A stretch of 64,000 nt of DNA from a virus. Position 1 is the stretch's first letter. Every line of letters begins with the position of its first letter. Positions 1-58,258 of the stretch are shown here, piece after piece. The position numbers and the translations under genes were made by a program. Under the pieces are notes generated by a model. The model did not search any database. It saw only the letters and a program-made list of their open reading frames with translations, and had not been told where the DNA came from. The stretch covers positions 1-64,000 of IMG/VR virus record IMGVR_UViG_3300048694_000663. One strand, 5' to 3'.

Positions 1-277
1 CTTTGGCTGCACTTTGTGTCGCCATAGCTTCTTGTAATTTTAACTGCTTATCAAACTCTGAAGCGGCAATCTCCGCTACCGTTGTCTGTAGACTTAAAAA
101 GTTTGCGTACTCAACTAAAACGTTATAAAGGTCAATAACTTCATGATTACTTAAGCTAGTTAATTCCTCTGGGACAGTAGGTGTTGGGTATTCAAACTTA
201 GTTGGTATAAAAATACCTTGTTTACCTAAATTATTTACAATATTACTACTGTAATTATCTAATGCTAACTCAATCAT
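1..277 (-). CDS. Hypothetical protein, 3' part cut by window edge
   Basis: An open frame starts at the ATG at 277-275 and runs off the left edge after about 92 codons without a stop. Its ATG overlaps the TGA of the Cas4-like gene as ATGA, the usual coupling in this genome. The visible part begins MIELALDNY. After a proline-rich stretch it becomes helical and rich in Ala, Glu, Gln and Lys. I recognise no family. The position downstream of Cas4-like and RecA genes suggests a DNA-metabolism role, but this is only context. Confidence 0.75.
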   Translation of the reverse strand, partial: MIELALDNYSSNIVNNLGKQGIFIPTKFEYPTPTVPEELTSLSNHEVIDLYNVLVEYANFLSLQTTVAEIAASEFDKQLKLQEAMATQSAAK

Positions 278-1158
278 GCTTCAAAAGCTTTACATGAAGC
301 GCACTGCTCAGCGGTATTAACATTGCAAGAAGGTGGTGTGCCGTTCTTAATGCAATCTAGAATCATGTACACAGCCTCAAACTTTTGTTTAATACCCCAG
401 TCATCTTTACGGATAATAAACTCTTTCTGCGTCTGATTAGCTTTGTTTTCATATAGAAATAAAATCTCTTGTGGAGGAGTTTGTGGGTACGGGTCGCGCT
501 CGTGAATAATTTCTAATAACTTTAAATAAATCTGTGCCTGCATAATGTGGCTAGTAAATGGCATAGCAAGGTCATCCCATGCATCCATCCAATTAATATT
601 TCCGTCGTCAGTGTAAATTAATTCAGGAGCTTCCCAACGGAAAGTCCCTTCGCCAACAGATTTAACTTCTAGTAATAGTGGCTCGCCAAAACCAATTAAC
701 CAACCATCGGCATGACCGCCAAATTTTAAATCTTCAATTGCTAATGGAACTTCTTTGTACTTCTTCATAGGTCCGTGACCACGGCTGCATTCGGGATATG
801 GCAAACCCCATTGACGTTCTTTACAATCATGATGCCAGCACGCCCATACGCCGTACAAGACGCCCATCTCTCCATAAAAATTTTGATACCACTCATGAAT
901 AGCATGCCCTGTATCAAATACACGTTGCGTACTAAGTCCAGTACGTGTTTTTTCTGTTGCTGGTTTTTGATTAAGTAACTCAAAGTATGTTGCTCTATGG
1001 CACCAATTTTCTTTTGCCATTTGAGATGGATGAAACACATCTATTCGACGTGATTCATCTTTTGGACGAGTAAGCATGTGGCGCTCCATCCGTCCCAGTA
1101 CTCGTGATTCGTACTTTGTCGCATCAAGAAACTTCTTGAAGGTCGCGGATGAAGCCAT
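274..1158 (-). CDS. Cas4/RecB-like PD-(D/E)XK nuclease with Fe-S cysteines
   Basis: This is likely a Cas4-family exonuclease acting in phage recombination or end processing. The 294-residue protein carries the nuclease core: His85 in GHAIHEW, Asp151 in GGHADG, and Glu164-x-Lys166 in LLLEVKS. Cys53 plus the C-terminal Cys278, Cys286 and Cys289 match the four-cysteine iron-sulfur arrangement of Cas4 and AddB. Between them, Cys107, Cys112, Cys124 and His128 look like an extra zinc-binding insertion. There is no Cas1, Cas2 or CRISPR array nearby, so this is a stand-alone phage Cas4-like nuclease. The ATG is preceded by GAGGGG. It lies just downstream of WhiB, resolvase-like and RecA genes in one transcription unit. 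Confidence 0.88.
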   Translation of the reverse strand: MASSATFKKFLDATKYESRVLGRMERHMLTRPKDESRRIDVFHPSQMAKENWCHRATYFELLNQKPATEKTRTGLSTQRVFDTGHAIHEWYQNFYGEMGVLYGVWACWHHDCKERQWGLPYPECSRGHGPMKKYKEVPLAIEDLKFGGHADGWLIGFGEPLLLEVKSVGEGTFRWEAPELIYTDDGNINWMDAWDDLAMPFTSHIMQAQIYLKLLEIIHERDPYPQTPPQEILFLYENKANQTQKEFIIRKDDWGIKQKFEAVYMILDCIKNGTPPSCNVNTAEQCASCKAFEA

Positions 1159-1162
1159 TTGT

Positions 1163-1480
1163 TTACCCCTCTTGTTCTATCCAATCGTAGACGGTCATCT
1201 TATGACGCTTTGCCTTACGTTGTAAAGCGTTTCGCTCTCTGTGACTTAGACCACCTCGTATGCCGTGCTGCTCGTCTATCTTGAGGGCAGCAATCAAGCA
1301 TTCTTTACGAACAGGACATTCTGGTTCGCCGTCTTTACCAAAGCAAATAGCTTTGGCTTGGTCTGCTATCGGCTTATATAACTGTTTGTCACGTGGGGGA
1401 AACCACAAGTCTGTATCCATACCTTTGCATTTGGCATGGTTATCCCAATAATCTAGCTCGTCGCCTTTGTACAAGTGCAC
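1163..1480 (-). CDS. WhiB-like protein with atypical cysteine spacing
   Basis: WhiB proteins are actinobacterial Fe-S transcription regulators that bind the primary sigma factor. This 105-residue copy has Cys18, Cys46, Cys55 and Cys61, a CPVRKEC block, and a basic C-terminal tail. Two features are unusual. The central pair is spaced C-x8-C, where the family normally has C-x2-C, and the turn motif reads GIRGG, with Arg in place of the usual Trp. The frame opens with GTG at 1480. A TTG two codons later (1474) has AGGAG at an ideal 5-base spacing and may be the true start. The 5' end overlaps the resolvase-like gene by 28 bases. Confidence 0.85.
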   Translation of the reverse strand: MHLYKGDELDYWDNHAKCKGMDTDLWFPPRDKQLYKPIADQAKAICFGKDGEPECPVRKECLIAALKIDEQHGIRGGLSHRERNALQRKAKRHKMTVYDWIEQEG

Positions 1481-2844: not shown

Positions 2845-3414
2845 TCAAATACTATCAATACGTCCGACAATTCCTTGTGGGTTGAACCCGCCTGTCGCTA
2901 CTTGTTTAGATGGAGCAGCTTTTCCTGTTCCGCTCATACCGCTAGTAGTGTGTCGAACTGGATACCCACATTCAAGACATTGCCAGTGTTCGACGGTTCC
3001 GTTTTGAGCTGCAATCTTTCCACGCATCATGTAATTGCCACTACCGCAATCTGGGCAAGTAGATGTTGAACGCGCACTTGATGGCGGTTTACTAACAAAA
3101 CCTTGTGCTTCTTGAATTTTATATCCTGGCATTGCTTGTGGAACTGCTGGATACATATTTGGTGGATATCCAGGTTGTTGTGGCATTTGTTGTGGATATG
3201 GATACATCGGCTGCTGCTGTTGCGGATACATCGGCACTTGTTGTTGTGGATACATCGGCTGTTGCGGTTGAAACTGCGCAGGAGGATATGGCGATGGAAC
3301 TTGTGGTGGATACCCAGGTTGTTGGTAATACTGTGGTGGGTATATAGGTTGTTGTGGTTGCTGTGGTTGTGGTGGGTTACCAAACTTACGTGCGTACCAG
3401 TCTTGATTACTCAT
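2845..3414 (-). CDS. Pro/Gln/Tyr-rich low-complexity protein with C-terminal zinc ribbon
   Basis: Roughly the first 95 residues are almost entirely Pro, Gln and Tyr, with repeated MYPQQQ-like units, a prion-like composition. The second half has a zinc ribbon of pattern C-x2-C-x22-C-x2-C (CPDC and CLEC). A short tail ends in a conserved-looking GRID motif. The function is unknown. Its place between RecA and the polymerase suggests a nucleic-acid-binding role, for example organising replication complexes, but that is inference. Plus-strand frames opposite the repeats are shadows. Its ATG overlaps the end of the next gene upstream by 8 bases. Confidence 0.8.
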   Translation of the reverse strand: MSNQDWYARKFGNPPQPQQPQQPIYPPQYYQQPGYPPQVPSPYPPAQFQPQQPMYPQQQVPMYPQQQQPMYPYPQQMPQQPGYPPNMYPAVPQAMPGYKIQEAQGFVSKPPSSARSTSTCPDCGSGNYMMRGKIAAQNGTVEHWQCLECGYPVRHTTSGMSGTGKAAPSKQVATGGFNPQGIVGRIDSI

Positions 3415-3928
3415 GTGGGAAGTTCCTTATTGCTTCTGAGGGTCCTGGCTGAATAAGGCCAAGATTAAATCCAATTGACAACATAAAAAGACAGGCAGCA
3501 AAACCAACTTGGTCAAGAAAAGCTGCACTTTCTTCTCTAGCTGCTCTTATCTGCTCTAAATCTAGCTCACTCAGTTCTGGGTGATTCTCTTTGATGGCTT
3601 CTTCAAAGCCTTCTTCGTGAATCATGCTGATGATATAGCCATTTATCTCAGCAACTGCTTGAGCAATTGATTCGTACTCTTTTACTCGCGCCATGCGTTC
3701 TTCGCTATCTTTGCGCTCCATATCCATACCCTCTTGACTAATAGGAGGTATGTCTAGGTATTTTTGCGCAAATTCTTCTGCTCTTTCAACCTCAAGGTCA
3801 TATAAGTACCATCTAAGCAAGGTAGACATTGGTAGATAAGCAGCGTCAGTTTCATTTTTAGCAATAAACTCATGGCCTTGTTCGCCATCGTTACTGCGAC
3901 GGTCATTTAACCAGTCTCTAAAACTCAT
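3407..3928 (-). CDS. Hypothetical protein between polymerase and zinc-ribbon genes
   Basis: A 173-residue, mostly helical and acidic protein with no family I recognise. The N-terminus is charged (SFRDWLNDRRSND). The middle is Glu-rich and probably coiled. Residues around 140-160 form one hydrophobic segment (FAACLFMLSIGFNLG) that may be buried or touch the membrane. Its ATG overlaps the stop of the DNA polymerase gene as ATGA, so translation is coupled to the polymerase. Confidence 0.75.
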   Translation of the reverse strand: MSFRDWLNDRRSNDGEQGHEFIAKNETDAAYLPMSTLLRWYLYDLEVERAEEFAQKYLDIPPISQEGMDMERKDSEERMARVKEYESIAQAVAEINGYIISMIHEEGFEEAIKENHPELSELDLEQIRAAREESAAFLDQVGFAACLFMLSIGFNLGLIQPGPSEAIRNFPHE

Positions 3929-5886
3929 TTTGCCTCACCCCAACGGTCCACTACTTTGACGTCCGCAATCAAAGGAACGTCTAGTAGATTAACGCCTTCC
4001 ATAGCCCCTCTAATCGCTTCTTCGGTCTGGGTCGCCAGGTGCTCTGGAGTCAGAGTCACCAATTCGTCATGAACAGTAAGAATAAGTCTACTCTCTTTAG
4101 GAATCATTTGGTGTGCACGCACCATAGCCAGCTTCATAATGTCTGCAGCTGTGCCCTGGATAACGGTGTTAAAGGCTTGACGGTCGGCGCTTCCCTTCTT
4201 AATACGGTCCCTAGAGTTGATGTCAGTGATATATCTGCGACGTCCCATAACGGTCTTAACAAATCCGACGTTTTCGGCAATACTTATAACCTTGCTTTTA
4301 TATTTTCCAACAGATTTAAACTCTTTTGCAAAGTTATTGATGAGGTCTCTAGCCTCCTGAACTTTACAGCCAATCGTGCGGGCTACTTTGTCGGGACCTA
4401 CGCCGTAGGATATAGAAAGCACTAAAACCTTACCCGCAGCTCGGTCTACGCCCATTTTGCTGGCTACTGCCTTGTAGATGTCCTCACCCTTGGTATACGC
4501 CGAAAGCATTGTCTCATCCTTACTAAGTGAGGCAATAATGCGAGGCTCAATCTGTGAGTAGTCAGCTACAACCAGCTTATATCCTGGAGGCGCAACAAAA
4601 AGATTACGGACAGCGCGACCATTAGCGGTGGCTGGATTAGGTACGTTTTGAAGGTTGGGGTTTTTAGAGCTAAACCGACCAGTTTCTGCGCCGTGCTGGA
4701 CAAAGTCGCCGTGGACTCTCCCCTTGACTAATAAACTCTCGCGCTCAGTTGTCTTGGATTCACCATTTACTGTCTTAGTAACTTCTCCGCCCAAATATGG
4801 GATTACATAGGTAGTAAGTAATTTATTCAAATCTTGGTAGTCAACAAGGTGTTGAATAATCTCGTGGCGCCCAATCAAACTTTGCAAAGCCTCTGCTGAA
4901 GTTGAAAAGTTATCCCACTGCAACTCTTCGTATGGCTTGTCTCCAGCACTAGATGTGACTATCTGTGTCTTTAGTCCAAGACCGCCCTCTTTACGAGGTT
5001 TGTAAAGCAAAGCCTGCTTTTCTTTTACTGAGTTGATATTAAAATGGCGACCAGCAGCTCGATAGATATCAGCTCTCTTATCTTCAATCTGTTTCTCAAG
5101 GTCTATTTTGAGTTGAGATAGGGCAACCATGTCAATTGGAGCACCTTCGAGCTTCATATGGCAAAGGACATAAAGAACGTCCATCTCTAAACGCATGATG
5201 CCCATAAGGTTACGTTCTTCTAAATGCTCTTGAACTTTACGATATAAGAGCCATGTATATTTAGAATCAAGCGCAGAATACTTTGCAACTTCATCAAAAG
5301 AGTGGGCTGCAATATCTTTTCCCACACCTTTGACCATGTGGTAGTCCAGCTCTCGCTTAAGGCAATCATCAAGACCTAACTTACCTTTATTACGGGTATC
5401 AAAAATAAAAGAACCAACTAAAGTATCAAAGTATGGCTTTGCAACAACTCTATTGCCATAATATTTAGCAATGGAAGTAATATCAAAAATTATGTTGTGA
5501 CCTATTTTTAGTTTGTCACTAAAAAATAATGGCTCTAACGCTTGAAAAACTTGCTTAGGAAATAGCTGAACTGGAGGAGACGTAAACGTCTTCGTAGCTT
5601 TCTTGTCGTCCCGCGAATAATCCGCATCTCGGACTGTAAGTCCTTTAGCCTGTCTCTTAGCCCCTTGTCCAGTAAGAGGACGAATAAGATTTTCAAAATC
5701 ACCATTCGGATGACCCATAGGAATAACATCGACCCTGCCATAAGTAGCAAAGCTAATCCAAACGACGTCGTTAAGAATTGTATTGCCTGCATGTTCCCCC
5801 ATGGTTTCAATGTCAAAAGCAAAAGAATCTTGCTCTAAATAATAAGCAACCATCTCATTAAGTTGCTCAACAGTTGTGATTACCAT
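3925..5886 (-). CDS. polA: Family A DNA polymerase (Pol I type) with 3'-5' exonuclease
   Basis: This is the replicative polymerase of the phage. The 653-residue length fits exonuclease plus polymerase without a 5' nuclease domain. Exonuclease motifs are FDIET (Asp25, Glu27), GHNIIFD (Asp135) and YSALD (Tyr203, Asp207), all intact, so proofreading should be active. Polymerase motif A is DYSQIE (Asp442), motif B spans about 483-495 with the O-helix Tyr494, and motif C is VHDE (606-608). Tyr at the O-helix position, as in T7 polymerase, is linked in the family to weak discrimination against dideoxynucleotides. The ATG follows AAAGGGG. That sequence is complementary to part of the leader described at 5881-5953. 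Confidence 0.96.
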   Translation of the reverse strand: MVITTVEQLNEMVAYYLEQDSFAFDIETMGEHAGNTILNDVVWISFATYGRVDVIPMGHPNGDFENLIRPLTGQGAKRQAKGLTVRDADYSRDDKKATKTFTSPPVQLFPKQVFQALEPLFFSDKLKIGHNIIFDITSIAKYYGNRVVAKPYFDTLVGSFIFDTRNKGKLGLDDCLKRELDYHMVKGVGKDIAAHSFDEVAKYSALDSKYTWLLYRKVQEHLEERNLMGIMRLEMDVLYVLCHMKLEGAPIDMVALSQLKIDLEKQIEDKRADIYRAAGRHFNINSVKEKQALLYKPRKEGGLGLKTQIVTSSAGDKPYEELQWDNFSTSAEALQSLIGRHEIIQHLVDYQDLNKLLTTYVIPYLGGEVTKTVNGESKTTERESLLVKGRVHGDFVQHGAETGRFSSKNPNLQNVPNPATANGRAVRNLFVAPPGYKLVVADYSQIEPRIIASLSKDETMLSAYTKGEDIYKAVASKMGVDRAAGKVLVLSISYGVGPDKVARTIGCKVQEARDLINNFAKEFKSVGKYKSKVISIAENVGFVKTVMGRRRYITDINSRDRIKKGSADRQAFNTVIQGTAADIMKLAMVRAHQMIPKESRLILTVHDELVTLTPEHLATQTEEAIRGAMEGVNLLDVPLIADVKVVDRWGEAK

Positions 5887-5953
5887 GCTACCCCTTTAAA
5901 TACTTGAGCAGGGACATGTTCGGAAAGGGGTAAACGCTGCCCCTGCTCAAGTA
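5881..5953 (-). promoter_or_regulatory. Polymerase leader: 13-bp hairpin with anti-Shine-Dalgarno loop
   Basis: In the minus-strand transcript, bases 5953-5941 and 5913-5901 form a perfect 13-bp stem with a 27-base loop. The loop contains UACCCCUUU (5932-5924). This is exactly complementary to AAAGGGGUA (5897-5889), which contains the Shine-Dalgarno sequence of the polymerase. Only three bases separate stem and Shine-Dalgarno, so the two pairings are either mutually exclusive or form a strained pseudoknot. No T-tract follows the stem, so it is not a standard terminator. The layout suggests translational control of the polymerase. Confidence 0.6.
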
Positions 5954-5965
5954 ACCTAGTGCGTG

Positions 5966-6658
5966 TTAGTTGTTGTCAGCAGATAGTTCTTGAGCAATCT
6001 CAAGAAGTTCTGCGTATGTGTTCATCTTGTAAAGTGATGATTCAAATACTTTTGACTTGCTAACTACGTCTTCTGCATTGGCTTCGTTGATGTTCCAATC
6101 TTCTTGGAGGTCACGAGCCTTGATAGCCTGTAAGTGATAAACAGTTGTCTGCATCTTACCTGTGCGTGAAATCGCCCAGTAGTGCTTGGTCAGCGGACCC
6201 TGCGGTGAAAAATGTGCAAGGTGAAGTGACTTATAGAAGCGTGGAGTTGCCAAAATAATTTGGCGTTGTGGTCCACCTTCTGCTGAGAAGTTAACAACAC
6301 TGAAAGCACGCTTTTCTTCAGCCTTGTTCTTCAGTACGGAGCAAAGTGGGCAATCATTCCCACCCTTGCTGTTGAGGCAAACATAAGACTTCTTACCTGG
6401 CTTACCATTTAAGAAATGTTGCTTGAAGTTTGCAAATGGACCATCTTGGTCAAGGAACTTCACAATCTGTGGTTGTTCCGTGTGCTTGAATTCGGTTGGG
6501 AATCCTTCTGATTGTTCTGACTGCAAAGCTTCTGCTGCAGCCCAACCTGAGGTTACTACTGTATCTTCGCTGATTCCCTGCGGACGGTCATCAACATCGA
6601 TGGTTTCTTCTGCTACTACGTAATCGGTAGCGTTTGCTGTTAGGTCGTTATTTGACAT
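5966..6658 (-). CDS. Single-stranded DNA-binding protein-like (gp32-type)
   Basis: This 230-residue protein lies directly upstream of the polymerase in the replication cluster. Its central region, with a C-x8-C-x2-C motif (Cys at YVCLN and CPLC) and aromatic and basic residues, resembles the zinc-containing SSB-like proteins of large phages. The N-terminal 50 residues are acidic and low in complexity. The C-terminus ends in an acidic helix (LLEIAQELSADNN), and acidic tails in SSBs usually recruit partners. I assign it from motif and context, not from a certain family match. The ATG is preceded by AAGGAAA. Confidence 0.65.
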   Translation of the reverse strand: MSNNDLTANATDYVVAEETIDVDDRPQGISEDTVVTSGWAAAEALQSEQSEGFPTEFKHTEQPQIVKFLDQDGPFANFKQHFLNGKPGKKSYVCLNSKGGNDCPLCSVLKNKAEEKRAFSVVNFSAEGGPQRQIILATPRFYKSLHLAHFSPQGPLTKHYWAISRTGKMQTTVYHLQAIKARDLQEDWNINEANAEDVVSKSKVFESSLYKMNTYAELLEIAQELSADNN

Positions 6659-10694: not shown

Positions 10695-11624
10695 CTATAT
10701 TGACATCATGGCTGAAAACTTTGCGTTCTCAATACCTGTTTGTATCTCTACCTTACTCATGCCCCCAACATCCTTTTGGTCTGTCTCAGCATAGTTAAAT
10801 ACCCAAACGCCTTTGTTAATTCCTCTAGCCCATTTGAGTAAATCTAAAGTGCAACTTCTGCCAGCATCATCATTATCAAATGCCAACATTAAATGTTCAA
10901 CAGAAGCGAGTTCTTGTTTTTGTTCTTTTGTTAGCCCAGCTCCATAAGCAGCTATAGCATTTGGATAGCCGACTGAATAAAGTCGAGCAACATCTAGGGG
11001 AGATTCAACAATGATTCTTGTTTTAGCATGGCCCCAATTATTAAAATTAAAAAGAGTATGCCCCTTTTTAACTCCTTTTGGATAGTTATTAAAATAACGA
11101 CCTACATAAGACTTCTCTTGCCACCCGTACAGTTTGTTTGTTCGCGGTTCACGGATAGGAAGAATCCACAGTTCTCGTCGCGGGTCCCAAAGGATTTCAC
11201 ATTCACGACATGACTCAGCAGTTATGCCTCGAGACTTAAGAGCATTCAATGGGGGATATGTAAACAAAGCCATGGAAGACTCTTGAAGTGTTTCTATAAC
11301 TTCTGTCTCTGGTTCTTTTAATAATGATTCAAATGCTTTGGTTAATCCAGTTGCGCTTTGGCTAATCCAAGCCTCTCCGTTTTTAACATCCTCTACAGAT
11401 ACGCCAGTGACGTATGCAATGAGAAAAGGAAAGCTTCCTTTAAAATTACATGACCAGCATCTATGTGCACCAGTGCTTGCATTGATTGACCAAGATGGGT
11501 TTCTATCTTCATGGCCAGTGCGTGCTAGGTGTCCTGGACACTTAGCCCATACCTCCTGCCCAACGGTTTTTGTTGGGTGTATCTCTAAAGTCTCTAAGTA
11601 ATCTTCTAGTTGTGAAGTTTCCAT
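10695..11624 (-). CDS. dnaG: DNA primase (zinc-binding and Toprim domains)
   Basis: This protein synthesises RNA primers for lagging-strand replication. The N-terminal zinc finger has Cys29, His32, Cys56 and Cys59, the CHC2-type pattern. The Toprim domain in the C-terminal half has IIVESPLDVARL with the catalytic Glu, and AFDNDDAGR with the metal-binding Asp residues. At 309 residues it is shorter than bacterial DnaG and lacks the DnaB-interacting domain. Its ATG overlaps the TAG of the helicase gene by one base, so primase and helicase are made together. Confidence 0.92.
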   Translation of the reverse strand: METSQLEDYLETLEIHPTKTVGQEVWAKCPGHLARTGHEDRNPSWSINASTGAHRCWSCNFKGSFPFLIAYVTGVSVEDVKNGEAWISQSATGLTKAFESLLKEPETEVIETLQESSMALFTYPPLNALKSRGITAESCRECEILWDPRRELWILPIREPRTNKLYGWQEKSYVGRYFNNYPKGVKKGHTLFNFNNWGHAKTRIIVESPLDVARLYSVGYPNAIAAYGAGLTKEQKQELASVEHLMLAFDNDDAGRSCTLDLLKWARGINKGVWVFNYAETDQKDVGGMSKVEIQTGIENAKFSAMMSI

Positions 11625-12850
11625 TAGAAGTCATCCTCTTCAAACTCACGGAACGTAGCTGTATCCCACTCCCATGAAAGCTTTACCTCAGCACCGCCTG
11701 AGTTACGGCTAGCCATAATCTTTAACAAACGAACAGAGTCATCATCATCAATACGCTCAAGGCCCATAACAATGTCAGCATCTTGAGCAAAGGAAGATGC
11801 ATAACCAATAGAGTCAAGAGTTGCTCTACCGCCCTTCATCTTATGACCTAGATATTGAGTATTAATAACAATAGGGATGTTTACATTAAGCGCTAGATTC
11901 TTTAAAGAACGCGTAATGTTAGTAAGAGCAGCTGGGGTATTCATTTCTTTTGTCTGCTCATCTTGCATCAAGTACACGCCGTCAATTACCACTAATGAAG
12001 GTTGAAGGATTTGAATGTTATTAGCGATAGAGGTAACGGTTCTACCCTCTGCTCCTGGAACAAGGTGGAATCCAGCTTTGAAGTTTGCTAATGATTTAAG
12101 GCCACTAAGGAATCTAGTTTCTTCTTCCTGCTCCAAAGTACCTGTCATCAAACGGTGGTGGGAAAGTCGAGAACGCATAGAGTCGTAGCGACGTGCTTGC
12201 TCATCGTTTGTCATTTCAAAAGACTTAAACATTACGGGGTTACCAGACTCATGAACTGATAAAGCCATTTGTAAACAAAGTGTTGACTTACCAGTTTTAG
12301 GAAGAGCAGCTACAACAATGAGCTGTCCGTTTTGGATACCACTGATGCTTTTATCAATCGTTGGAAATCCTGTCCTGTAACCAAGAATTCCATCTGGAGT
12401 ATTTTTTCGTGTGAGGTACTCTTCATACCGTTGTTCAGGATTGTTCGTGAGGTCGACAGTAGCTGCACCTTTAAAAGATGAAGCTTCAATCCCGACGAGC
12501 CCTCCTTGTAAAGCAAGCAGTGCTGCTTCATGGTCTTTCTCCTTATCAATAAGTTTGATTGCTTCGCCAAGCATTGCAATGGTTGCTTTTTTACGGCGCT
12601 CAGCAACAACAGCATCAAGGAGATAGTCAATAGGGTCACTAACTTCAACTAAATCAAAAGCTGGAAAGTTATCTTTTACTGCATCAATGCTTGGAGACTC
12701 TCCGTAGTTAACAAAGAATTGGCGCATGAATAAGAAAAGACGTCGGTCTTCATCTATATCAAACCAAGTTTCATCAACAGCTTTTGTAAGAATTGGTGCA
12801 AGGTCTTGTAAAGATATTGCTTTATGTAGCAATCTCGTTTCGTTTAACAT
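11624..12850 (-). CDS. dnaB: DnaB-like replicative helicase
   Basis: This is the hexameric replicative helicase. An N-terminal helical domain of about 125 residues is followed by a RecA-like ATPase with Walker A LPKTGKST (near 184-191) and Walker B SLVVIDGVYLM. The conserved FKSFEMTNDEQARR helix and the C-terminal QDADIVMGLER segment fit the DnaB family. The ATG at 12850 overlaps the upstream TGA as TGATG and is preferred to a TTG one codon earlier. It is adjacent to primase downstream and near a DnaC-like loader upstream. Confidence 0.93.
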   Translation of the reverse strand: MLNETRLLHKAISLQDLAPILTKAVDETWFDIDEDRRLFLFMRQFFVNYGESPSIDAVKDNFPAFDLVEVSDPIDYLLDAVVAERRKKATIAMLGEAIKLIDKEKDHEAALLALQGGLVGIEASSFKGAATVDLTNNPEQRYEEYLTRKNTPDGILGYRTGFPTIDKSISGIQNGQLIVVAALPKTGKSTLCLQMALSVHESGNPVMFKSFEMTNDEQARRYDSMRSRLSHHRLMTGTLEQEEETRFLSGLKSLANFKAGFHLVPGAEGRTVTSIANNIQILQPSLVVIDGVYLMQDEQTKEMNTPAALTNITRSLKNLALNVNIPIVINTQYLGHKMKGGRATLDSIGYASSFAQDADIVMGLERIDDDDSVRLLKIMASRNSGGAEVKLSWEWDTATFREFEEDDF

Positions 12851-13269
12851 CAACGACCTCCGAACAAATCTCTAAACGAGTAACCCCAGTGGCCGTACAT
12901 TAGCAAGCGTTCGGGCAAGTCCACTACCCCCATTACTTCAGGATGATATGGGAGTGTCGTGACAAGAGAAGCTACATCATCATAAGCAGAGTGATAGCGG
13001 AAGGGATTAGTTCCTGCAGCATCTAACTTCTCCACAACATTATCTAACTCTTCTTGTGTATGAGAAGTGCTCACCAACTCTAGGGTGACGCCAACTTGAA
13101 CTGTATAAATATAGAAACGACTTAAAGCAACGGAGTCTAGTTGTATATCTGTCTGTGTTTTCTTTAAAACTTTATATTTTGTTACGGTAGTTTTTGTGCT
13201 TTTAGAAATTACATCGATGTGAACTAAAAAACGCTTTGGCATATCATTGCTGATATCACCATTACGCAT
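12850..13269 (-). CDS. Hypothetical protein
   Basis: A 139-residue protein of unknown family located between the helicase and the SWIM zinc-finger gene. The N-terminal half looks like alternating beta-strands (RFLVHIDVISKSTKTTVTKY). The C-terminal half is more mixed and ends GYSFRDLFGGR. Its ATG is at the TAG of the upstream gene, so it belongs to the replication operon. No catalytic motif is visible. Confidence 0.7.
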   Translation of the reverse strand: MRNGDISNDMPKRFLVHIDVISKSTKTTVTKYKVLKKTQTDIQLDSVALSRFYIYTVQVGVTLELVSTSHTQEELDNVVEKLDAAGTNPFRYHSAYDDVASLVTTLPYHPEVMGVVDLPERLLMYGHWGYSFRDLFGGR

Positions 13270-34975: not shown

Positions 34976-35011
34976 AAAAAAGTATACCCCGCCATTTCTG
35001 ACGGGGCATAC
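34976..35011 (-). terminator. Rho-independent terminator after the 1374-aa protein gene
   Basis: In minus-strand sense GTATGCCCCG and CGGGGTATAC pair (10 bp with one G-U) around a 10-base loop and are followed by TTTTTT. It ends the unit of the 1374-residue protein. A TATACT in its 3' arm may also serve as a -10 box for the GH130-like gene. Confidence 0.8.
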
Positions 35012-35025
35012 TTCGGAAGCGTTTT

Positions 35026-48412: not shown

Positions 48413-48442
48413 TAAAACGAATGGCGCCTCGAAGAGACGCCA
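48413..48442 (-). terminator. Rho-independent terminator-like hairpin after capsid block
   Basis: In minus-strand sense TGGCGTCTC-TTC-GAGGCGCCA forms a 9-bp stem with one G-U pair, followed by TTCGTTTTA. The T-tract is interrupted, so termination may be partial. Confidence 0.65.
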
Positions 48443-48460
48443 CCCGTTGAAAGCTTAAGT

Positions 48461-55126: not shown

Positions 55127-55153
55127 ACCTACCCCATTGTAAAAAGCCAAAGA

Positions 55154-55177
55154 GCTCAGGTCTTTGCAAACCTGAGC
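55154..55177 (-). terminator. Hairpin with T-rich tail before terminase (terminator or attenuator)
   Basis: In minus-strand sense GCTCAGGT and ACCTGAGC form an 8-bp stem around TTGCAAAG, followed by TCTTTGGCTTTTT. It lies between a candidate promoter and the terminase start, so it could act as an attenuator. Confidence 0.55.
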
Positions 55178-55222
55178 CCCTCAGATACCACGACACGGAG
55201 AAGAGAAACACGCGGTGAGATA

Positions 55223-58009: not shown

Positions 58010-58232
58010 GTTTGATGGAACTCAACCTTGTAGGCAAACTGACCCTGAAATTTTTTTCCCTGAAAAAGGGGGAAATGCTTTTGAGACTAAGGTTGCCGTC
58101 AATATCTGTAGAACATGTAGATTTATAAACCCTTGTCTTGAGTTTGCTATAGAAACGCATGCTCTTGGCATTTGGGGAGGCACAACAGAACGACAACGAA
58201 GAACATTAAGAAAGCAAAAAGGCCAGCCGTAA
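57939..58232 (+). CDS. WhiB-family transcription regulator
   Basis: The 97-residue protein has Cys31, Cys57, Cys60 and Cys66 (C-x2-C-x5-C) and GIWGGTTERQRR, the full WhiB hallmark, so an Fe-S cluster and sigma-factor binding are expected. Starts at 57939 and 57945 are possible, both within the transglycosylase gene. The tail is Lys/Arg-rich, typical for DNA contacts. It shares the plus-strand transcript with the lytic enzyme. Phage WhiB proteins can repress host WhiB genes or control late genes. Confidence 0.87.
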   Translation: MEMQKTQVESVTRGTSGKKITGIEFDGTQPCRQTDPEIFFPEKGGNAFETKVAVNICRTCRFINPCLEFAIETHALGIWGGTTERQRRTLRKQKGQP

Positions 58233-58245
58233 GGCTGGCCTTTTT
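58216..58245 (+). terminator. Bidirectional Rho-independent terminator
   Basis: AAAAGGCCAGCC-GTAA-GGCTGGCCTTTTT is symmetric, with a 9-bp GC stem flanked by A and T tracts. It ends the plus-strand WhiB gene (the stop lies inside it) and the minus-strand gene at 58259-59338. Confidence 0.92.
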
Positions 58246-58258
58246 GTTTGTCGGGTAA

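Follow-up and report, generated by a model that had tools for sequence, protein, structure and literature searches.

An intercistronic hairpin downstream of ssb in uncultured phages carries a loop complementary to the polymerase Shine-Dalgarno sequence and probably acts as a brake on polymerase synthesis

The window analysed here is the 64,000-nucleotide stretch that forms positions 1 to 64,000 of the IMG/VR virus record IMGVR_UViG_3300048694_000663. All genes around the site, from a MerR-like regulator to an exonuclease, lie on the minus strand. Their order is the MerR-like regulator, a probable single-strand DNA-binding protein gene (ssb), the hairpin, a family-A DNA polymerase gene (pol), two small ORFs, recA, a Holliday-junction resolvase gene, whiB and a Cas4-like exonuclease gene (exo) (Table 1). 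The presence of whiB together with the low G+C content suggests an actinobacterial host, and whiB is also present in isolated Ca. Planktophila phages (PMC10202952). A proline/glutamine-rich ORF at 2845-3414 of the window showed a weak match, below the cut-off, to the Cas12f TNB zinc-ribbon model.

Table 1. Positions of the genes and RNA features discussed in the text. SD, Shine-Dalgarno.
Feature	Position	Strand	Basis or remark
Cas4-like exonuclease gene (exo), possible second target	274..1158	-	phrog_2506 exonuclease, E 1e-29
AGGGGUAAAC in the exonuclease SD region	1161..1170	-	10-nt complement of the loop
Family-A DNA polymerase gene (pol)	3925..5886	-	Pfam PF00476, E 8e-96
pol SD region AAAGGGGUA	5889..5897	-	sequence
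RNA stem, 3′ arm	5901..5916	-	sequence and MFE fold; covariation in related clade
21-nt loop GCGUUUACCCCUUUCCGAACA	5917..5937	-	predicted fold: ACCCCUUUCC unpaired atop a 4-bp inner helix
Anti-SD UACCCCUUU, complementary to the pol SD	5924..5932	-	exact 9-nt match
Overlapping anti-SD GUUUACCCCU, complementary to the exonuclease SD	5926..5935	-	10-nt match
RNA stem, 5′ arm, 16 bp with one G.U	5938..5953	-	sequence and MFE fold
Probable single-strand DNA-binding protein gene (ssb)	5966..6658	-	stop codon 12 nt ahead of the stem

The ssb product had no sequence match in Pfam, PHROG or the PDB. It was 24% identical (E 1e-10) to gp129 of phage GiJojo, an annotated single-strand DNA-binding protein (SSB), and a profile match was obtained as well. 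An AlphaFold model of the product (pLDDT 83) gave only weak structural matches to OB-type folds, such as RPA, PrgE, the gene V protein and PRD1 P12. On this identity and these modelled folds, the SSB that the initial annotation had placed just upstream of pol is a probable one. The product also has a CPLC motif and is a candidate for a new phage SSB family.

The only DNA mismatch in the arms of the hairpin becomes a G.U pair in the minus-strand RNA, so the stem is 16 continuous base pairs long. The MFE fold gave the same uninterrupted 16 bp, with a z-score of -3.1 compared to shuffled sequences. The perfect 13-bp stem noted originally (5901-5913 with 5941-5953) was thus correctly placed but too short, and its supposed 27-base loop is reduced to 21 nt in the fold. 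Within this loop, the nine-base complement of the pol SD that had been pointed out is exact, and AAAGGGGTA had no other occurrence in the 64 kb besides the loop complement. A search of the window against Rfam gave no family at the gathering score.

The hairpin was the strongest on the minus strand of the window, and its score of 37 exceeded the maximum of 26 that was reached in 100 dinucleotide shuffles of the leader. Among the strong hairpins of the window, it was the only one with a loop complementary to downstream sequence over at least 7 nt, and none of the others had an anti-SD loop. When the loop was dinucleotide-shuffled, 0.8% of the shuffles gave a complement of at least 9 nt. Further strong intergenic hairpins with loops of 3-4 nt were seen at 34979-35014, 48416-48448, 55145-55186 and 58210-58251, and these are probably ordinary terminators. 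What decides against a chance origin is the conservation of the hairpin in relatives.

Relatives were collected by scanning viral contigs with pol proteins, which gave 250 loci with 105 distinct leaders. Three GC-rich leaders, with pols 41-43% identical, were set aside, leaving 102 leaders with pols 57-100% identical. In a search confined to stems ending 9-30 nt ahead of the start codon, every one of the 102 distinct leaders had a hairpin of 9-20 bp between ssb and pol, immediately 5′ of the pol SD, and the observed stem was better than all 100 shuffles in 29 of 33 cluster representatives. The initial annotation had proposed that homologous leaders be aligned and inspected for covariation, and compensatory substitutions were indeed present. 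Within one clade, aligned over 20 rows, both sides had changed in 9 of 14 stem pairs, a number that none of 500 shuffles reached. In the same alignment 97.8% of the cells were paired, compared to 52-62% when the partners were slid by one column, and between the window and a relative at 92% an A-U pair of the stem was swapped for G-C. This comparative evidence shows the RNA stem to be structurally conserved.

The position of the hairpin followed the ssb stop codon. The distance from the stop to the stem was 3-15 nt in 95 of the 102 leaders and 17-20 nt in the remainder. Five isolated Streptomyces phages, with pols 39-40% identical, also had a strong hairpin about 7-12 nt past the stop of the gene preceding pol, which is annotated as an SSB gene in GiJojo, LuckySocke and Alone3. 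In the Streptomyces phages, the hairpin stayed at the ssb stop when the pol start was 69-76 nt away and also when ORFs in between placed it about 435 nt away. No anti-SD was found in the hairpin loops of the five phages. The hairpin is therefore tied to the ssb stop rather than to pol and represents an ssb-pol intercistronic element, not simply the polymerase leader that it had been called. The simplest reading of its retention at the ssb stop in the Streptomyces phages is that of an element of the ssb 3′ end which acquired the anti-SD loop in the present phage group. An intrinsic terminator was discarded as a general explanation because U tracts are absent in most leaders: at least five U in the next 8 nt were found in only 18 of 102, so in most of them the hairpin is no standard terminator. 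A terminator scan did not list the hairpin of the window as terminator-like.

Most relatives carried an unpaired UCCC-type motif in the loop, complementary to a G-rich pol SD; in about a quarter of the lineages, among them two clades whose ACGUGC loops are conserved, the hairpin lacked an anti-SD. When CCCC in the loop was compared with GGGG in the pol SD over 59 clusters, 42 had both and 11 had neither, with three discordant clusters in each direction (Fisher 4e-7), and over 33 clusters the corresponding counts were 20, 7, 3 and 3 (p 0.0024). The loops also matched their own SD over a longer stretch than swapped SDs, with p values of 1e-4, 8e-4 and 0.004 at 90, 80 and 75% clustering, respectively; at 70% clustering, with six clusters, the difference was not significant. 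Even inside the CCCC-GGGG class, the flanks matched their own SD better than swapped ones (p 0.016 and 0.038). Of 17 homologous gene starts or families, just two matched their own loop over swapped loops, namely pol (p 1e-4 at every clustering) and, more weakly, exo. The loop:SD complementarity of the initial annotation is thus conserved in relatives, where it tracks the pol SD (own versus swapped, p about 1e-4).

In 88 phages, GGGG was present in the SD of pol in 58 and in the SD of ssb in none. The dnaB starts (11624-12853 in the window, and relatives) had GGGG in 21 of 28 relatives with any loop type, which warns against over-reading the GGGG of pol. On the pol tree, CCCC changed at least nine times and GGGG at least eight times, and the two were jointly absent in three separate clades (the L098-L240, L004-L144 and L065-L080 groups). 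Discordant lineages included L176, L011, L074, L046, L062, L085 and L026; pol SDs of the L011 type are GGGA, and L085 has GGGGG without CCCC. When the tree was taken into account in an independent-pairs test, CCCC and GGGG yielded too few contrasts for power, and the result was not significant. In L176, L177 and L178, the CCCC loop is retained, and no SD, G-rich or otherwise, could be recognised in the leader of pol (CCTAAACTATTT ATG). In the ssb-pol gap of the clades with ACGUGC loops (L004:1-8545, L016, L144, L098 and L111), the pol SD is of the AAGGA type and is not complementary to the loop, which may perhaps be a protein or kissing site; no partner of these loops was found at gene starts.

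The loop of the window also matched the SD region of exo. This complement was 10 nt long in the window, 11 nt in L001, 8 nt in L002 and L024, and 7 nt in L203 and L210, and GGGGTAAAC occurred in the window only at the exo SD and as the loop complement. Two matches of at least 9 nt among 64 gene starts were reached by 0.3-0.4% of shuffled or random 21-mers. Own loops matched exo better than swapped loops (p 0.0018, 0.02 and 0.03 at 95, 85 and 80% clustering), a result that fails correction for 17 genes after de-replication. The signal was concentrated in the clade of the window, in which the base that follows GGGG (U, U, A) changed in step with the loop base opposite it (A, A, U). As a second target of the loop, exo is therefore suggestive only. 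The 8-nt matches of the window's loop to the starts of dnaB and ORF 7141 were not conserved in swap tests and were dropped.

The interpretation that we favour starts from what the sequences show, namely a conserved hairpin with a covarying stem that is anchored to ssb, and a loop that goes together with the pol SD and matches it. We consider it fairly likely that the hairpin after the ssb stop had an older role at the ssb 3′ end and that its loop later became an antisense anti-SD lowering the translation of pol. The older role would probably have been mRNA protection, insulation or partial termination, giving much SSB and little polymerase. In the present lineage, the loop would have turned into a C-rich antisense sequence pairing with the pol SD, whose AAGGGG is unusually rich in G, so that less polymerase would be translated. 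The loop:SD element is probably a built-in brake on making polymerase. The predicted loop:SD duplexes were -14.6 kcal/mol for pol and -19.0 kcal/mol for exo, compared to about -8.5 kcal/mol for SD:16S tail pairing. The pairing might occur in cis, through a strained pseudoknot or an opened stem, or in trans, with the loop of one ssb transcript acting on the SD of another.

The initial annotation had proposed a switch in cis, in which one molecule alternates between a stem form with a free SD and a loop:SD form, or pseudoknot, with a blocked SD. Nine complementary bases are available in cis, and by a deliberately lenient estimate, opening 0-3 bp would suffice for the loop to reach the SD in 68 of 74 leaders. 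However, the stem of -20 to -32 kcal/mol would form before the SD is made, the lengths of stem and linker are correlated at -0.45 where a spanning pseudoknot would need a positive correlation, and the exonuclease match is far away. H-type pseudoknots are also not known to combine stems this long with linkers this short. Such a switch therefore appears doubtful, and the idea of a spontaneous alternation between two states is not upheld given how stable and how early the stem is. The lenient calculation of geometry and energy did not bear out an outright steric ban on pseudoknots in cis; since it allows cis pairing with the stem kept in most leaders, a local pseudoknot may be called strained only.

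Because the exo SD lies about 4.7 kb downstream of the loop, pairing with it, if real, would have to occur in trans or over a long range. The exo match would favour such a component in the clade of this phage, and the pairing may perhaps block ribosome access to exo as well. It is conceivable, and we propose it only tentatively, that the loop at the ssb 3′ end serves as an antisense hub for pol and the Cas4-like exonuclease at once, pairing with both SDs in trans or across kilobases, so that the amount of ssb transcript would set their translation.

A translational operator, at which the polymerase or SSB would bind the hairpin and the SD and block the ribosome, with the loop as a recognition element instead of an antisense sequence, seems unlikely. 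Such an operator would fit the adjacency of hairpin and pol SD, a loop motif that is kept while stems diverge, and the ACGUGC loop of the two other clades, which a protein site would allow without SD complementarity, and it has a precedent in T4 gene 43 (PMC3014915). Protein recognition alone does not predict a loop that matches the pol SD beyond swapping, and the hairpin remains with ssb where pol is displaced. That the hairpin is nothing but a terminator, decay barrier or insulator of ssb, with the loop:SD complementarity as a functionless by-product, is improbable: it would agree with the anchoring at the ssb stop in all lineages, including the Streptomyces phages without anti-SD loops, and with the U-rich tails of some members, but the loop:SD matching is significant and most tails are not terminator-like. 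A DNA operator of two inverted AAGGGG sites is unlikely because the spacing from the loop CCCC to the SD GGGG varies from about 19 to 32 nt.

A literature search, in which few subscription journals were covered, found no description of the element. By analogy, the best precedent for the antisense mode of working that we favour is icaR of S. aureus, where UCCCCUG in the 3′UTR base-pairs with the SD, in cis or in trans, so that ribosomes are blocked and a substrate for RNase III is made (PMC3868564). Both systems set a UCCCC motif, as also found in RNAIII and RsaE, against a G-rich SD, and many phage loops contain the same UCCCCUG; in the phages, however, the motif lies in an intercistronic hairpin loop upstream of its putative target. 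In T4 and RB69, the operator of gene 43 likewise puts a hairpin ahead of the SD of a replicative phage polymerase, but the T4 polymerase belongs to family B and its 16-18 nt hairpin has a fixed, protein-bound -UAAC- loop (PMC3014915), whereas the phages here have a family-A polymerase, stems of 9-20 bp and loops that are either of the SD-complementary CCCC type or ACGUGC. The combination of a UAAC loop and a short stem as in T4 gene 43 was not seen in the leaders examined. The pseudoknot of T4 gene 32, which encodes an SSB, is also a leader RNA structure in the translational control of a replication gene, but it controls ssb itself from 67 nt upstream, whereas the phage hairpin comes after ssb. 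In the aapA mRNAs of H. pylori, anti-SD sequences hide the SD within one transcript (PMC6733600); there the SD is part of a hairpin, whereas in the phages it lies outside and the anti-SD is formed by the loop. The decay-barrier hairpins of puf and papBA also lie between genes that are needed in unequal amounts (PMC5927463), but unlike the phage hairpin they have no anti-SD loop.

If the favoured interpretation is true, a large group of phages that are uncultured and apparently infect actinobacteria would govern their replicative polymerase through an antisense RNA loop that lies at the end of ssb and targets the ribosome site. This would be an alternative to the T4 polymerase operator that needs no protein. 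The output of polymerase, and in some phages also of exonuclease, would then be tied to the transcription of ssb. About one hundred natural variants, some of which have lost loop motif and SD together, would provide a ready set for studying how such control evolves.
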